Assembly: GCF_001418575.1 (NCBI RefSeq)
Contig: NZ_LIQR01000114.1
Coordinates: 1 to 64,000 of the forward strand
Origin: Peterkaempfera griseoplana
Lineage (GTDB): Bacteria; Actinomycetota; Actinomycetes; Streptomycetales; Streptomycetaceae
Direction: 5' to 3'
DNA length: 64,000 bases
Part shown: positions 38,669-45,464 of the stretch, piece by piece
Layout of the letters: each line of letters begins with the position of its first letter
How positions within the stretch are numbered: the first letter of the stretch is position 1
Notes under the pieces: generated by a model
Database searches by the model: none
What the model saw: only the letters and a program-made list of their open reading frames with translations
Told to the model about the DNA's origin: nothing
Position numbers and translations under genes: made by a program

Positions 38669-38938
38669 TTACGCCCCCTCCCCCAGTACGCGCTCGACCA
38701 GCTCCCGCTGCGCATCGCTCAGTCCCGGGTCGGCAAACTGAACGCTGCGACGGTCGTCCACCGTCACGATGTACTGGTATCCGTCGGGCACGCCTGGAGC
38801 GGCCCCGGAGGGCGTTTCAGTGACGACTTCGAGTGCGAGGCGCTCCAGCTCGGCCGAGTCTGGTAGGCCGGACGTGTCCACCTCGGCCCGGCGCGGCATC
38901 CCGAGCAGCCCACCGCTTCTGATCACCCGAATGCGCAT
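38669..38938 (-). CDS. emfourin-like protease inhibitor
   Basis: An 89-residue protein of the protealysin-inhibitor (emfourin) family: MRIRVIRSGGLLGMPRRAEVDTSGLPDSAELERLAL, then DGYQYIVTVDDRRSVQFADPGLSDAQRELVERVL. It lies just downstream of the M4 metallopeptidase gene, the arrangement known for protealysin and emfourin. Its expected role is to block that protease inside the cell until export. The ATG at 38938 is preferred over an upstream one because the family starts with the MRIxVxRSGG strand. Confidence 0.85.
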   Translation of the reverse strand: MRIRVIRSGGLLGMPRRAEVDTSGLPDSAELERLALEVVTETPSGAAPGVPDGYQYIVTVDDRRSVQFADPGLSDAQRELVERVLGEGA

Positions 38939-38982
38939 GTCATCAGCATGGTGGACTGGCACAGCCGCGCGGGGAGACCAGA

Positions 38983-40074
38983 TCAGCCATTACCGTTGAC
39001 GCCCACCTGCGACCAGGCCTTGAGAACCGCCTCGTGCTCCGGTCCCTTCCCATAGCGGCTCTGTGCGGCGACGACCGTCGCCCGGGCGAAATCCTTGAAA
39101 TCGGCGTTCGGGGACAACCCACCGGAGGTGATCGTGTCGTACCAGATCTGACCAGCCCGCTCCCACGCAAATCCGCCGATGGCGCTCGCGACCAGGTAGA
39201 AGGCGTGGTTGGGGATACCGGAGTTGGTGTGAACGCCCCCGTGATCCAGAGGGTCGTCCACATAGCCGCCCATGTTGTCCGGCTGCGGGTCCTTGCCGCC
39301 CAACCGGGGATCGTTGAAGGCCGTGCCCGGAGCCTTCATGGAACGCAGAGCCTGGCCGTGCACCGCCGGGGTGAAGATACCGGCGCCGATGAGCCAGTCA
39401 GCCTCCTCGGCTGTCTGGCGACGTGCGTACTGCTTGACCAGGGAGCCGAAGACGTCAGAGATCGACTCGTTGAGGGCACCGGACTGGCCCTCGTAGACCA
39501 GGCCGACGGTGTACTGCGTGACACCGTGAGTGAGCTCATGGCCGACGATGTCATGGGAAATGGTGAAGTCGTTGAAGACCAGACCGTCGCCGTCACCAAA
39601 GACCATGCGTTCGCCGTCCCAGAACGCGTTGTTGAAACTTCGGCGGTAGTGGACGCTGGCATCCAGCGGGAGGTTGGCGTCGTCGATCGAGTGGCGGTTG
39701 TACGCCTCCTTGTAGAAGGCGAACGTGAGGCCGAGGCTGTCGTAGGCACGGTTCGCGGTCCCGTCCGTGACAGGGTCGGCGCCTTCGTTCCTGACGACGT
39801 CGCCGGGCAGCGCAAGGCCGTGATGGGCGTCGTAGACCGTTCGCTTGAGGATGAAGTCAACGGCTGGGGCGGGCGCCGCCAGACTGGGCACGGCCAGCCG
39901 GTTCTCCCGGAACTCGGTGTCGATTTCCAGGGTGCGCTGAGCGGCCTCACGTACCCGGGGGTCGTCCGCCTCTGCGAGTCTGTCGAGGATGTACGGCGGC
40001 AGGATGCCGCACAGGCATCGACCAGCCGCAGGCTCCGGGCGATTCCTGCCGCCCGCGATTTGGGTGGTGTACAT
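38983..40074 (-). CDS. M4-family metallopeptidase (protealysin-like)
   Basis: A 363-residue thermolysin-like protease. It has a short N-terminal precursor (about 45 residues with CGILPPYILDRLAE, as in protealysins) and no signal peptide. The catalytic domain has VGHELTHGVTQY (zinc His pair and Glu), the third zinc ligand in GALNESISDVFG and the catalytic His region HTNSGIPNHAFY. I chose the ATG at 40074 (MYTTQIAGG) because the precursor begins there. The absence of a signal suggests leakage, non-classical export or intracellular action, and the adjacent emfourin gene would protect the cell. Insecticidal or virulence-like roles have been described for relatives. Confidence 0.92.
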   Translation of the reverse strand: MYTTQIAGGRNRPEPAAGRCLCGILPPYILDRLAEADDPRVREAAQRTLEIDTEFRENRLAVPSLAAPAPAVDFILKRTVYDAHHGLALPGDVVRNEGADPVTDGTANRAYDSLGLTFAFYKEAYNRHSIDDANLPLDASVHYRRSFNNAFWDGERMVFGDGDGLVFNDFTISHDIVGHELTHGVTQYTVGLVYEGQSGALNESISDVFGSLVKQYARRQTAEEADWLIGAGIFTPAVHGQALRSMKAPGTAFNDPRLGGKDPQPDNMGGYVDDPLDHGGVHTNSGIPNHAFYLVASAIGGFAWERAGQIWYDTITSGGLSPNADFKDFARATVVAAQSRYGKGPEHEAVLKAWSQVGVNGNG

Positions 40075-40294
40075 ACTGAAGACGGTGGATGCGCCCGGCA
40101 ACAACGGCCATCCGGGAGCCGGGAGTCTCACCCAGGCGGCTGCCGCGCTGGGCCGGATGGCCGGACGCGGTGCTCGGCGATCCGTTCCTGCCCCGACATC
40201 GCGCGCCGCCGTGGAACGCGCCGAGGGCTCGGCAGACAACCCGGCGTAGGCAGAGCACATCAAGCGGTTCTGTACGGTATGTCAGCTCCTCGCG

Positions 40295-41200
40295 TCAGGA
40301 GCCTGGGGCCCGGGCACTTCCCTGGCCGTTACCGCGTGACCGGCGCCCGACCGGCGGCCCGGCCGCACTGCGCCGTCCTGACTCGATCTGCCCGGCGAAC
40401 GCCTGGAGCGCGGCGGAGCTGTTCGGCGGCAGGACTGCCATCAGCCCGAGCTCCTGCGCCTCAGCCAGTGTGTCCGCCGCCCGGCTGCTCTCAGGGGCGT
40501 GCACCAGGCGCACATGCCCGTCACCGGACCCCCGCCGGTCCACTGGGGTCACAGCTCCATGCGTTCCGTCGGGCAGGACCACCCACAGCTGGAAGTCGCC
40601 GTACCGGAAGAAGTCCGCACCCTTCACGGGCCAGGGGTAGTGGTGCTCACCGGGCACCTGCGGCAAGATCCCCTGGTGGTTTCCGTGGCTCATCGGCACG
40701 CACGCGTTGAACAGGGAGTCGGTCCACGCCTCCACGTCGTCGGCGTCCGTGATCGGCGTGCGCAGCAGCTGTTCGGCCTCCTCGTACCCAAGGTTCGCCA
40801 GGGCAGGCAGGGTCAGCGGGAAGGCCGCCACGAGTTCGGCCGCGTCCTGACGCAGCCGGTCGATCTTCGACGGCTCGGCGCAGAACTGCATGCTCCACTC
40901 GATGCCCACACGGGCCCGGTACATCCGCCAGCCACCCGCCGTCTTCACCCACAGGCTTCCACCGTGATGCATCTCCCAGTGGTCGGGTTCGACGGGCCTG
41001 GGCCCGTACGGCAGGTTCGCGTCGTTCGTCTCGTCGAGGATTTTGTGCGCCGCCTGCTTCGCGGCGCGGAAGAAGGGCGACTCGAAGCGCTCGGGATGCT
41101 CGACCAGACGTATCTTCCAGGGATGGTTCTCCGACTCGACGCCGCCCGGCTTGAGAGTGCCGGGAATCGAAGGCGTGACGACGGAATCGGTGCGGGCCAT
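40295..41200 (-). CDS. DUF6424-like hypothetical protein
   Basis: A 301-residue soluble protein. SENHPWKIRLVEHPERFESPFFRAAKQAAHKIL, then MHHGGSLWVKTAGGWRMYRARVGIEWSMQFCAEPSKIDRLRQDA resemble the actinobacterial DUF6424 family as I recall it. The last 40 residues are Arg/Gly-rich and low-complexity. The function is unknown. The ATG has AGAGGAGG upstream. It is divergent from the lasso-peptide precursor gene, and the shared 365-base gap should hold both promoters; an involvement in lasso regulation is only a guess. Confidence 0.7.
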   Translation of the reverse strand: MARTDSVVTPSIPGTLKPGGVESENHPWKIRLVEHPERFESPFFRAAKQAAHKILDETNDANLPYGPRPVEPDHWEMHHGGSLWVKTAGGWRMYRARVGIEWSMQFCAEPSKIDRLRQDAAELVAAFPLTLPALANLGYEEAEQLLRTPITDADDVEAWTDSLFNACVPMSHGNHQGILPQVPGEHHYPWPVKGADFFRYGDFQLWVVLPDGTHGAVTPVDRRGSGDGHVRLVHAPESSRAADTLAEAQELGLMAVLPPNSSAALQAFAGQIESGRRSAAGPPVGRRSRGNGQGSARAPGS

Positions 41201-41502: not shown

Positions 41503-41530
41503 TTGCGCGCCGGGCGTCGCGCGATAGCCT
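41503..41530 (+). promoter_or_regulatory. possible promoter of the lasso-peptide genes
   Basis: TTGCGC (41503) and TAGCCT (41525) are separated by 16 bases and lie 35 bases before the precursor start. This fits a vegetative-type promoter with a short 5' leader. No start-site data are available. Confidence 0.35.
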
Positions 41531-41564
41531 GAAATCGCACGCTGCCCGATCCGGGAGGTAAGCG

Positions 41565-41681
41565 ATGATTCTTCGCCTGATGCGGCGTCGCCGGCCGCGG
41601 CGGCTCGTCTGTCTCGGTGATGGTCGCCTGATCCGAGGGTTCTCCGGAGGCCATTACGACGGCCATGGGTACCAGTTCTGA
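41565..41681 (+). CDS. lasso-peptide precursor (38 aa)
   Basis: A short gene with a strong ribosome-binding site (GGGAGGT) just before the leader-peptidase and cyclase genes. The peptide begins MILRLMRRRRPRRLVCLGDG and continues RLIRG, then the predicted core GFSGGHYDGHGYQF. As in known lasso precursors the core begins with Gly and has Asp at position 8, so an eight-residue Gly1-Asp8 ring is expected with a GHGYQF tail. The leader has the usual P...L...LGD pattern, but the conserved Thr at -2 is Ile here, and it is unusually Arg-rich. The core is 14 residues, within the usual range. Fit to neighbours is the main support. Confidence 0.8.
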   Translation: MILRLMRRRRPRRLVCLGDGRLIRGFSGGHYDGHGYQF

Positions 41682-41702
41682 AAGAGGACGAGGAATTACT
41701 CT

Positions 41703-41735
41703 GTGAGCCCGTCGCCGGAACTGGTGGCGGGCCAC
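41703..41735 (+). terminator. hairpin between lasso precursor and B gene (possible attenuator)
   Basis: GTG-a-GCCCGTCGCC can pair with GGTGGCGGGCCAC (13 pairs, two wobbles, one bulged A, loop GGAACT). Such hairpins between precursor and enzyme genes usually let more precursor transcript than enzyme transcript be made. There is no U-run, so leaky termination or RNA stabilisation is equally possible. Confidence 0.45.
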
Positions 41736-41763
41736 AGTCCAGTCCACCTCCGGAGGATTCACG

Positions 41764-42387
41764 GTGGCAGAGAGAACTGATGCACTGACTGCGATTGCGG
41801 AGATCCTGTCACCGTACTGCCATATAGTTGAGGTGTCCGGTGGCGCGCTGATCGCCGACTGGAGCCGAACGCGTTTCCTCGGAGTGTCGACGGCAGACAT
41901 CCTGCGGTTCGCTGACGGGAAACCCGAAGACCGGGCAGAACTCCTCGACGAACTGGTCCGCGCCGGATGCGCCCGACCCAGGCGGAGAGAGTACTCGTAC
42001 CGTGAGGTCGGGGCCTGGCTGCGCGGAATCGACCTGCTGACCCGGACCATCGGGTTCGGGCGGACCCTTCGGGTCCTGTCACTGCTCGCACCGGACTACG
42101 CACGTGCGGACACCGCGTCCGCCCCATGCCTGGCCTCGCTGAAGCGAGCCGTGCAGTCCCACGGCAGGAGAAGCTGGCTGGTCGGCGACGACTGCAAAAC
42201 CCAGGCTCTTACGGCTTACATTCTGCTGCGGCGCCGTGGTTTGAGGGCCGCACTCCACGTCGGCATGCGGGAGCATCCGTTCGCGATGCACGCATGGACA
42301 TCCTGCGGCGGGGTGTGCATTCCTGACGCGGATCCGGGCGGTCATGCCTTTGCACGCGTGCTCTCGCTCAAGGGCGGAGGGCAGTGA
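41764..42387 (+). CDS. lasso-peptide B protein: fused leader-binding (RRE) and transglutaminase-like leader peptidase
   Basis: A 207-residue protein. Residues about 10-85 (YCHIVEVSGGALIADWSRTRFLGVSTADILRFADGK) look like a PqqD-type leader-recognition element; residues about 110-205 form the transglutaminase-like peptidase with Cys144 (GDDCKTQAL), His176 (AMHAWTS) and Asp188 (IPDADP). In many actinomycetes these are two genes (B1 and B2); here they are fused as in proteobacterial McjB. It should bind the leader and cut it before Gly1 of the core. The GTG has GGAGG upstream, and the stop lies one base before the cyclase ATG. Confidence 0.9.
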   Translation: MAERTDALTAIAEILSPYCHIVEVSGGALIADWSRTRFLGVSTADILRFADGKPEDRAELLDELVRAGCARPRRREYSYREVGAWLRGIDLLTRTIGFGRTLRVLSLLAPDYARADTASAPCLASLKRAVQSHGRRSWLVGDDCKTQALTAYILLRRRGLRAALHVGMREHPFAMHAWTSCGGVCIPDADPGGHAFARVLSLKGGGQ

Positions 42388-42388
42388 G

Positions 42389-44209
42389 ATGGAAGCCGTC
42401 CACCTGGAGCTGACCGACGGAGCGCCGTCGCTCTCGGTCAGCAGCTCGATGGTGCGGCGGGGACTGGTGACGACTGTGCACTCCCCGGTCGGCACCGCGG
42501 CGGTCGTCGGCTGGGTGGGCTCCGTATCCGGTCGGGAAGCAGGCGCACGCCGCCTCCTGGACGACTTCTCCCGACCTGGAGCCGACCGCTCTCCGCCGAC
42601 CGGTGACTATGCGGCTGTGCTGGTGTACGGCGACCGCGTTCAGCTCGTACGCGACGGGCAGGCCCGTATACCGCTGTTCCTCAGGGAGTCCGGAGGCCGC
42701 GTCACGGGCGTGAGCACATCCGCGCGCCGACTGGGCTGTGGCGCGCGACTCGAGCCGCGCTACATGTGCCGGTACCTGACCGGGAACATGGCACAGCTCC
42801 ACACACGGCTCACCCCCTTCGCCGGCGTGCAGCGAGTCCTGGGCGGGGAGGTGGTGGAACTCTCGGTCAACGGACGGATACGCAGCCAATCGCTGCGACG
42901 CCACGCCCTGGCCGGCGCCGTCTCCGCACCGGGCACGGAAACTCGACGCAGCGCCGCAGAGTGTCTCCGCGCGGCGCTGGAGCGGGCTGTCGACCGCCGG
43001 GTGGGTGGGATGACCGCATGCCATGTCTCGGGGGGTACCGACTCCACCAGCGTGGCTCTGCTCGTGGCGAGGAGACTGGCGGCCCGGCAGGATGAGCCTG
43101 GAAGTCTGGTCCTCGTCGCCGGGCGCTTCGGTGCAGGGGAGCTGTCCCAGGAGCAGCCCTATCTCGACGAAGCCGTGCTGGCGATCCGCTGTTATGCCCC
43201 CTCGGCCCGCTTGCTGATCATCGAGACCGGAGACATCGCCGACTTCGACGACTTCGAGCACCACGCAGGCGACCCGGACGAGCCTTACGCGCATGCTTTC
43301 CGTGCCCCCTTTTGGGCCAGGCTCCACACCGCGGCCGCAGAACTGGGCTGTGAGACTCTCCTGACCGGCTGCGGCGCCGATCCGATCGCGGACGCCAACC
43401 TGTTGCACCTGCACAGACTGGTGCGGCAGGGACAGTTGCGAAGCATGGTGGTACAGGCGCAAGCCTGGGCGGAGGCAAGCGAACGCACGCTACGGGAGAT
43501 CGTCCTGCGCTCCGTGGTGGAGCCGAGTCTTCCGCTGACCGTGGAGCGCGTCGGCAGGTTGCTCCGCGGCCGGGGAACCGTCCTTCGGGGCCTCGGGAAC
43601 TTCACCCGCCCGCGATGGCTGAGGTCCGACTTCGCCCGGGCGTACGGGTACCGGGGCGCAGGCAGGGCGGAAAGCCGTTTCATGTTCGGACGCAAGCCTG
43701 AGGAGTCCTGCTACGAAGCGGCCAACTACATTGCCGCTCCGGATCCCCTCTCCTGGTTTCGTGCCGAACGGGACGGATTCTTCCTCTCCCATCCTTTTCT
43801 GGACCCCGACGTCATCGGAACCATGTGCCGCCTGCCGCCCGAGGTGACCTTTCAGCCAGGCCGCCCCAAAGCTGTGCTGCGTGAGGCAATGGCAGATCTG
43901 CTCCCGTCACGGATCCGCGACCGGACCGTTAAAGTCCCCTTCGACGAGCTCCACACACGCGGCCTGCAGACCCACGGGGCCGAACTCATTGATCTGTGCC
44001 GGTCCGCCAGCCATCCTCTCGTTCCCGAGATTTTCGATGTCGAGACGCTGTGTCGAGCCCTGACAGAGGCCGTACTCGGCGTGGGGAACCCCTACGCCTG
44101 GGATCGCTTGAACGCCTCTCTCGCCCTTGTGGCCTGGCTGGAGCGCCTGGGCTGTTACTCGCGCAGCGTGCTGGCACCTCTTCCGGTTCCGGTGGTCACG
44201 CCTGCTTGA
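42389..44209 (+). CDS. lasso-peptide cyclase (asparagine-synthetase-like, C protein)
   Basis: A 606-residue macrolactam synthetase. The N-terminal half is a degenerate glutaminase-like fold (MEAVHLELTDGAPSLS..., TGDYAAVLVYGDRVQLVRDGQARIPLF) lacking the catalytic Cys, as in other lasso cyclases. The synthetase domain starts with the ATP pyrophosphatase loop SGGTDST at 214-220, followed by LTGCGADPIAD and HPFLDPDVIGTMCRLPPEVTFQPGRPKAVLREAM. It should adenylate Asp8 of the core and close the ring on Gly1. The ATG has GGAGGG upstream and follows the B gene directly. Its last 14 bases overlap the convergent membrane-protein gene. Confidence 0.92.
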   Translation: MEAVHLELTDGAPSLSVSSSMVRRGLVTTVHSPVGTAAVVGWVGSVSGREAGARRLLDDFSRPGADRSPPTGDYAAVLVYGDRVQLVRDGQARIPLFLRESGGRVTGVSTSARRLGCGARLEPRYMCRYLTGNMAQLHTRLTPFAGVQRVLGGEVVELSVNGRIRSQSLRRHALAGAVSAPGTETRRSAAECLRAALERAVDRRVGGMTACHVSGGTDSTSVALLVARRLAARQDEPGSLVLVAGRFGAGELSQEQPYLDEAVLAIRCYAPSARLLIIETGDIADFDDFEHHAGDPDEPYAHAFRAPFWARLHTAAAELGCETLLTGCGADPIADANLLHLHRLVRQGQLRSMVVQAQAWAEASERTLREIVLRSVVEPSLPLTVERVGRLLRGRGTVLRGLGNFTRPRWLRSDFARAYGYRGAGRAESRFMFGRKPEESCYEAANYIAAPDPLSWFRAERDGFFLSHPFLDPDVIGTMCRLPPEVTFQPGRPKAVLREAMADLLPSRIRDRTVKVPFDELHTRGLQTHGAELIDLCRSASHPLVPEIFDVETLCRALTEAVLGVGNPYAWDRLNASLALVAWLERLGCYSRSVLAPLPVPVVTPA

Positions 44210-45464
44210 TGTTCCAGAGCGTCTGATCGAGCCGGCCCGCGACGGCGTCGACGATGCCGTACCGGTTGTTCAGTTCGTACATCTCCGAAGCAGGAAGGAT
44301 GCGGTCCTCCTCCCCCAGGCGTTTGATACTGGCGTAGAGGTCGACGCTGTGGGGTGAGAAAACCCACCAGAGGGTGACGTAGCGCGGGTCTCTAGTGTGC
44401 TCGGCGATCGCATTGTTCTCGCGAATCCGGCCGTGGTAGATGACGTAGTCGCCCTTGCCCTGCTGCCACTTCGGTACATGGTATGTGCGATCCCAGGAGT
44501 ACCCGCTCCGAACTTCCTGCTCCAGACCCAGCCGGTCCTTGCGCGCCAAGTTCGCTGTCGCGTACAGCGACAACTGGTCGTAAGGGGTGCTGGCGGGCAG
44601 CTCCACAAGCTCCTGGGTGGCGAATGTGCCACCCGGCTCGATCCATTGGCCGGCGGACATCCACTCGCTCGCCTCGACCAGTTGGCCGGGCTCATGGATC
44701 TCCCTGCGAGAGAGCGGGTTGGAGGACCGCACGTCGCTGCGCCACTCAAGGGCAAGCCGGTCCGTGAGACTCAAAGGCACCCGGTATCCCATGACATGGA
44801 ACTGCGTGCCGAACACATAGAAGCCCACTTCGCTGTGGTTCTCAAGCGTGATGTCGACCGGCAGGGCGAACGCGGTACCGTCCGGCTTCTTCACGGGCTG
44901 TCCCACGGCCATCCGGATGACCGGACTGGCCTCCTGATGAGACGGCTGATAGAGCTCGGTGTAGCTGAAGTTGGCGAGGGCGATACCCGTGGAGATGATC
45001 ACTGCAGTCGCCACCCGCTTGGGAGCCGGGATCACGGCGGAACTCCGGTACACCATGACGGACGCCCAGACGGAGCCCGCCATGAGCAGACACCAGAGCG
45101 CCAGGTAGGGAATGGAGTCCCCGTCCGTGACCGTGGTGACCAACAGCAAGGCGTTGACCGACGCTGCTGTGACCGTACCGAAGAGCGCCACCATTCCGGA
45201 CGAGCCACATCTGCGCCGGAACCAGTGGTCCACCACCGCGACGGAGCCCAGCAGTATGACGGCCGAGGCAAGGAGAAGGAGCGCGCCCGAAATGCGACCC
45301 GCGTAGGTCAGCGCCCCGGTGAGGTCCTCGGTGCCGAACCGGGCGAGGAACACCGTCGTCACCAAGAGGACGAGCAGGATCGGCAGCACCGTCGCCAGTG
45401 AGCGGACACGTCGCGAGGCCCATGGCACCCGTGGGTGCCGGCGAGGCCTGTCAGGGGTCTCCAC
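44196..45464 (-). CDS. membrane protein of unknown function
   Basis: A 422-residue protein. The first 170 residues contain four to five membrane helices (LATVLPILLVLLVTTVFLA, ISGALLLLASAVILLGSVAV, MVALFGTVTAASVNALLLV, LALWCLLMAGSVWASVMVY, VATAVIISTGIALANF). The rest is a soluble, probably extracellular domain with immunoglobulin-like strands (FALPVDITLENHSEVGFYVFGTQFHVMGYRVPL, TPYDQLSLYATANLARKD). No family is recognised. Its end overlaps the lasso cyclase gene by 14 bases on the opposite strand, but convergent overlap does not by itself link the functions. It could be unrelated, or give immunity or export. Confidence 0.75.
   Translation of the reverse strand: METPDRPRRHPRVPWASRRVRSLATVLPILLVLLVTTVFLARFGTEDLTGALTYAGRISGALLLLASAVILLGSVAVVDHWFRRRCGSSGMVALFGTVTAASVNALLLVTTVTDGDSIPYLALWCLLMAGSVWASVMVYRSSAVIPAPKRVATAVIISTGIALANFSYTELYQPSHQEASPVIRMAVGQPVKKPDGTAFALPVDITLENHSEVGFYVFGTQFHVMGYRVPLSLTDRLALEWRSDVRSSNPLSRREIHEPGQLVEASEWMSAGQWIEPGGTFATQELVELPASTPYDQLSLYATANLARKDRLGLEQEVRSGYSWDRTYHVPKWQQGKGDYVIYHGRIRENNAIAEHTRDPRYVTLWWVFSPHSVDLYASIKRLGEEDRILPASEMYELNNRYGIVDAVAGRLDQTLWNIKQA

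Follow-up and report, generated by a model that had tools for sequence, protein, structure and literature searches.

A putative class II lasso peptide family of Streptomycetaceae and the membrane protein gene that accompanies it

Three adjacent genes of Peterkaempfera griseoplana raise two questions: do they encode a lasso peptide, and does the locus end with them? The window, that is, the whole analysed stretch of 64,000 nucleotides, carries on the plus strand the short gene A (41565–41681, 38 codons), gene B (41764–42387, GTG start) and gene C (42389–44209, ATG start), with a gap of 1 nt between the stop codon of B and the start codon of C. The preliminary description regarded positions 41565–44209 as a complete lasso peptide locus. 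The coordinates of A, B and C are exact, whereas the end point has to be moved, as the functional unit runs to 45464 with a fourth gene, M. Judged by sequence, A, B and C are an intact operon and a genuine lasso locus that represents a new family. We consider it probable that A-B-C specifies a class II lasso peptide, with M most likely protecting the producer or exporting the peptide.

The product of A (MILRLMRRRRPRRLVCLGDGRLIRGFSGGHYDGHGYQF) consists of the leader MILRLMRRRRPRRLVCLGDGRLIR followed by the core GFSGGHYDGHGYQF. The Arg-rich leader is encoded by 24 codons (41565–41636) and ends with LGDGRLIR, Ile and Arg occupying positions −2 and −1; the predicted cleavage at this point leaves the core, which together with the stop codon (41679–41681) covers positions 41637–41681. 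The start of A is firm, since the sequence GGGAGG (41553–41558, plus strand) lies six nt upstream of the ATG codon and an in-frame TAA directly precedes the gene. This ribosome-binding site had been called strong, and its GGAGG is indeed conserved in the alignment of the loci. A small frame between A and B (41703–41780) was also considered and dropped, given that the A–B gap is variable in length and poorly conserved among loci.

B codes for an undivided lasso B protein (NCBIfam NF033537, E 3e-18; Pfam PF13471, Transglut_core3, E 3e-20). Its score against the curated lasso B2 model NF033537 equals 66.4 bits, twice the cut-off of 33. The leader peptidase occupies the C-terminal part and contains Cys144, His176 and Asp188; in the alignment of orthologues the first two residues are invariant and Asp188 is nearly so. 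At the level of sequence this confirms B as a B2 transglutaminase-like leader peptidase with the Cys/His/Asp residues. B had been described as a fusion of a leader-binding domain with a peptidase. The peptidase part is thus confirmed, and an N-terminal RRE (PqqD-like leader-binding) domain is likely: the first ~80 residues are RRE-like in predicted secondary structure, the structural model (pLDDT 81) has three strands and two helices at residues 20–66 followed by the transglutaminase-like peptidase, and sequence profiles align this part with PqqD-like Streptomyces proteins with the hairpin in the expected register, at non-significant E-values of 0.03–0.17. No separate RRE gene is seen at the locus. 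Comparison of B with PDB by sequence gave no relatives, and the whole-chain fold search gave no confident match.

C is a predicted lasso macrolactam synthetase of the asparagine-synthetase type (PF00733, E 2e-21). The match to PF00733 exceeds the cut-off, the SGGTDS motif is intact and SGGxDS is conserved across the aligned orthologues, all of which points to an ATP-dependent macrolactam synthetase. The best curated match is the model for albusnodin/ikarugamycin macrolactam cyclases (NF033561, E 4e-46), though with 157.8 bits C stays under its cut-off of 300; it falls below the NF033535 cut-off as well. Among solved structures, beta-lactam synthetase (1jgt, E 5e-15) comes closest to C. The family differs from the albusnodin/ikarugamycin systems in that no acetyltransferase gene recurs beside C at the loci. 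The cyclase of Streptomyces sp. DHE7-1 (L011:6626-8400) is divided into two frames (residues 1–239 and 238–591), which may be a pseudogene or a sequencing error. That B or C serves some other precursor is disfavoured, as the assembly of the window contains only one lasso B gene.

A scan of a genome collection with one genome per species yielded 12 loci, all in Streptomyces, with B at 56–68% identity; in each of the 12, a gene of 38 codons that shares the start and core of A lies upstream. Apart from the window, 22 loci in all were found in Streptomycetaceae, and the precursor is present in every one of them. Counting those of the window, of a linear plasmid and of a stand-alone copy, the precursors number 24. 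The profile of A matches the real loci with E-values from 1e-17 to 1e-24 per genome. The same start, the length of 38–39 codons and the near-invariant core at every related locus examined put the small gene far beyond chance. C is carried by 13 of 395 Streptomycetaceae genomes; outside this family, 297 genomes sampled over the class gave weak partial matches only. In one genome (G536:C1) two identical copies of the cluster, near 105 kb and 10.04 Mb, lie in the apparent terminal inverted repeats of the linear chromosome, and a linear plasmid of 114 kb (NZ_CP106796.1) also carries the cluster; hence the cluster is probably mobile. The RefSeq annotation of the plasmid copy contains B and C and omits the precursor, which makes the family easy to overlook.

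All precursors compared fit the core consensus GFSG(G/A/S)xYDGHG(Y/H)(Q/H/L)x. Positions 1–4 and 7–11 are constant in all 24 precursors, whereas positions 6 (H, F, D, M, L or S) and 14 are variable and carry most of the change; the dN/dS ratio of the core is about 0.19, synonymous changes exceeding amino-acid ones. Since the core hardly varies in Streptomycetaceae, the peptide probably acts on a single conserved target or receptor. Every precursor was inspected for Gly, Cys, Ser or Ala at position 1 and for Asp or Glu at positions 7–9, and Gly1 and Asp8 are invariant throughout. The eight-residue Gly1–Asp8 ring proposed for this core is thereby upheld, and the core, as had been said, contains no Cys. 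The suggestion that its two histidines bind metal fares worse. His10 is invariant and His6 occurs in the window and in two other loci (L003 and L056), but 20 of 23 precursors have F, M, L, D or S in place of His6; a two-histidine site is therefore not a conserved function, and no metal transporter or metal regulator recurs at the loci. The claim is weak, and we consider a metal-binding lasso peptide of this kind very improbable.

Class II lasso peptides with Gly1 and Asp8 include chaxapeptin (GFGSKPLDSFGLNFF), sungsanpin, anantin (GFIGWGNDIFGHYSGDF), ulleungdin and achromosin (PMC12427821). They share with the window core the two ring residues, the lack of Cys and the length of 14–17 residues, with at most 5 of 14 positions identical. 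In comparison with the chaxapeptin/anantin group, the rest of the core is unrelated, and the family studied here has its own leader, an undivided B and M. Neither a reviewed list of about 70 lasso peptides nor the open papers searched contain the window core, which the preliminary description likewise did not recognise as a known lasso peptide; searches with core fragments returned nothing on lasso peptides.

Lasso leaders usually, though not universally, have a YxxPxL motif and Thr at position −2. Both are missing from the leader of A, and the window leader contains no Tyr at all. Position −2 is Ile in all precursors except one, which has Val. The first validated lasso precursor with a penultimate Ile is BsfA of Bradymonas sediminis (PMC10368454). 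BsfA and A both have Ile-Arg at the leader end before Gly1 and Ser at core position 3; the Bsf system differs in having YxxPxL, split B1 and B2, a kinase and an ABC transporter. In PMC10368454, every Ile/Val(−2) cluster encodes a kinase or phosphotransferase, whereas no kinase family is conserved in the flanks of our loci. Moreover, actinobacterial B genes are usually split (PMC10368454), while the B of the window is one gene.

Under the proposed mechanism, B would bind the Arg-rich leader and remove it by cutting after Ile-Arg, and C would activate Asp8 with ATP and link it to Gly1. The predicted product has a Gly1–Asp8 isopeptide bond closing an eight-residue ring, which we infer to form around the six-residue tail threaded through it; the untrimmed product would give an [M+H]+ ion of 1510.61. 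Points against this reading are the position of C below the nearest lasso cyclase cut-off, the leader without Thr(−2) and YxxPxL, the non-significant RRE profiles of B and the whole-chain fold search, which gave no good match. The first of these, together with the affinity of C to the albusnodin/ikarugamycin subfamily and a short Gly-rich tail with few bulky plugs (Tyr12; Phe14 in the window only), would also suit an unthreaded branched ring or another lactam. Such a product is quite unlikely, given that B is a member of the specific lasso B2 family, the Gly1/Asp8 spacing is the lasso norm, and lasso peptides of 13 and 14 residues are known (huascopeptin and achromosin, PMC12427821; canucin). 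The threaded lasso peptide remains our preferred reading of A-B-C.

The alignment of 23 loci contains a promoter-like block upstream of A. In the window it reads TTGCGC, 16 nt, TAGCCT(G) (41503–41531, plus strand), and in the orthologues, TTGCGG...GTAGCCTG; the pattern TTGCGG-N16-TAGCCT is located about 35 bases upstream of A. The exact pattern was found at the operon site in 10 of 12 lasso-positive genomes and in none of 6 lasso-free genomes, with two stray matches elsewhere. The block is conserved and nearly unique to the A-B-C operon. A promoter motif common to the operon and M was looked for and not found. The block, Ile(−2) and M were all absent from the preliminary description.

Two other genes are located near A in several genomes. 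In five loci (window, L010, L011, L012 and L057), a DUF6424 gene (40295–41200, minus strand in the window) is located upstream of A at an equivalent position and in the same orientation. A gene for an M4 (protealysin-like) metallopeptidase, at 38669–40263 on the minus strand in the window, lies within ~7 kb of the lasso genes on either side in 8 of 22 A-B-C loci and on the plasmid (window, L002, L003, L006, L047, L048, L055, L058 and plasmid locus L099), which looks more frequent than random. Beside the metallopeptidase gene, an emfourin inhibitor gene gave a match in three loci (window, L006 and L058), and one is annotated on the plasmid.

A comparison of all open frames of the 23 loci shows wide conservation of just one gene other than A, B and C, namely M (44196–45464, minus strand). 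It encodes a membrane protein of 422 aa, is convergent with C and overlaps its 3’-end by 14 nt. M stands beside C in 20 of the 23 A-B-C loci, the plasmid being counted. Among the 395 Streptomycetaceae genomes it is present, at 43% identity or above, in all 13 that have C and in none of the other 382, the next matches having 28–33% identity. The Fisher test for this co-occurrence gives p ~1e-24, a value that is not corrected for relatedness and overstates independence, as the loci are related by descent. M is an obligate and unreported partner of A-B-C in the sampled genomes. More distant relatives of M (26–33% identity) are found on Streptomyces chromosomes and linear plasmids (L072-L075, L083-L092, L129-L131); a close reading of four chromosomal loci (L072-L075) showed no B or C relatives nearby.

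In three genomes (G094, G110 and G114) M is present away from A-B-C. The unlinked M of G094 adjoins a stand-alone precursor, B and C being gone (L054), and an intact A-B-C without M is located on another contig of the same genome; this arrangement is a natural split of the lasso system. The stand-alone precursor (G094:C6:295000-313000) has the core GFSGASYDGHGYQS and directly faces M. The unlinked M of G110 adjoins a decayed fragment of C (L071), whereas next to that of G114 (L070) neither a B nor a C relative was detected. No orphan precursors were found beside the M copies in L070 and L071 or beside the distant M relatives. On the tree, the unlinked M copies group with branches other than those of their own A-B-C, which suggests that M acts in trans on the shared core. 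A second M copy in G147 comes from the L008/L052 branch; given this copy and the branch mismatch, M seems to be interchangeable among members of the family. Interchangeability would suit a protein dealing with the core common to the family.

The same evidence bears on whether M is instead a biosynthetic or folding helper, e.g. a scaffold that would hold B and C at the membrane, involved neither in self-protection nor in export. Strict co-occurrence with C and the convergent, overlapping position of the two genes would agree with that, but M is unlinked in some genomes and is kept where B and C are lost; further, the precursor with the B and C proteins is the generally required lasso set (PMC10368454). 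We find such a helper improbable.

In the structural model of M (mean pLDDT 71), residues 15–172 form five membrane helices, and a C-terminal Ig-like beta-sandwich of ~240 residues follows. The distribution of charges favours a topology with the N terminus inside and the Ig-like domain outside. The fold search returned only Ig-like sandwiches of the ApaG and TRAP types (best E 6e-5, target TM ~0.55), no Pfam or NCBIfam family gave a credible match, and no match was obtained in PDB by sequence.

ABC transporters of the McjD type serve both export and immunity in lasso clusters. No ABC transporter gene (gene D) recurs when frames are compared across the 23 loci. M may share with McjD-type proteins the role of keeping the peptide out of the producer, though it lacks an ATPase domain and matches no family, and its five helices are joined to an Ig-like domain that is ApaG-like in fold only. 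In place of an ABC transporter, M would shield the producer from its own peptide or move the peptide out. Co-occurrence alone cannot separate immunity, export and reception. Immunity or export nevertheless fits best, since M goes with every producer, persists where the biosynthesis genes have decayed, seems to act in trans and stands at loci with no recurrent ABC transporter; retention of M while the biosynthesis genes decayed is what one expects of immunity. Against this role are the lack of a known transport fold and the distant relatives of M in Streptomyces without the cluster.

Reception would mean that cells of the family use the peptide to signal to one another and that the outside domain of M binds the peptide and reports inward. 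An almost invariant core across species, the sizeable predicted outside domain, and the constant presence of M with the producer and its apparent function across branches are all compatible with a receptor. On the other hand, no output domain of a known type, such as a kinase or a regulator-binding domain, is present in M, and regulator genes do not recur next to it at the loci. Eavesdroppers, i.e. genomes with the receptor and no producer, would also be expected, whereas none of the 395 genomes has M without C. A signal receptor is therefore unlikely, and self-protection of the producer or export of its own peptide is the most likely role of M. Taken more broadly, it is about an even chance that M is a new non-ABC lasso partner whose outside Ig-like domain recognises the core for self-protection, export or perception and which is required whenever the peptide is made.

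With this family, the range of Ile/Val(−2) leaders comes to include actinobacteria, and the kinase associated with such leaders in PMC10368454 does not accompany them here. The role of lasso clusters that have no transporter is often unclear. Here a near-frozen peptide is tied to one undescribed membrane protein, which makes its target, immunity and function testable via deletion of a single gene.
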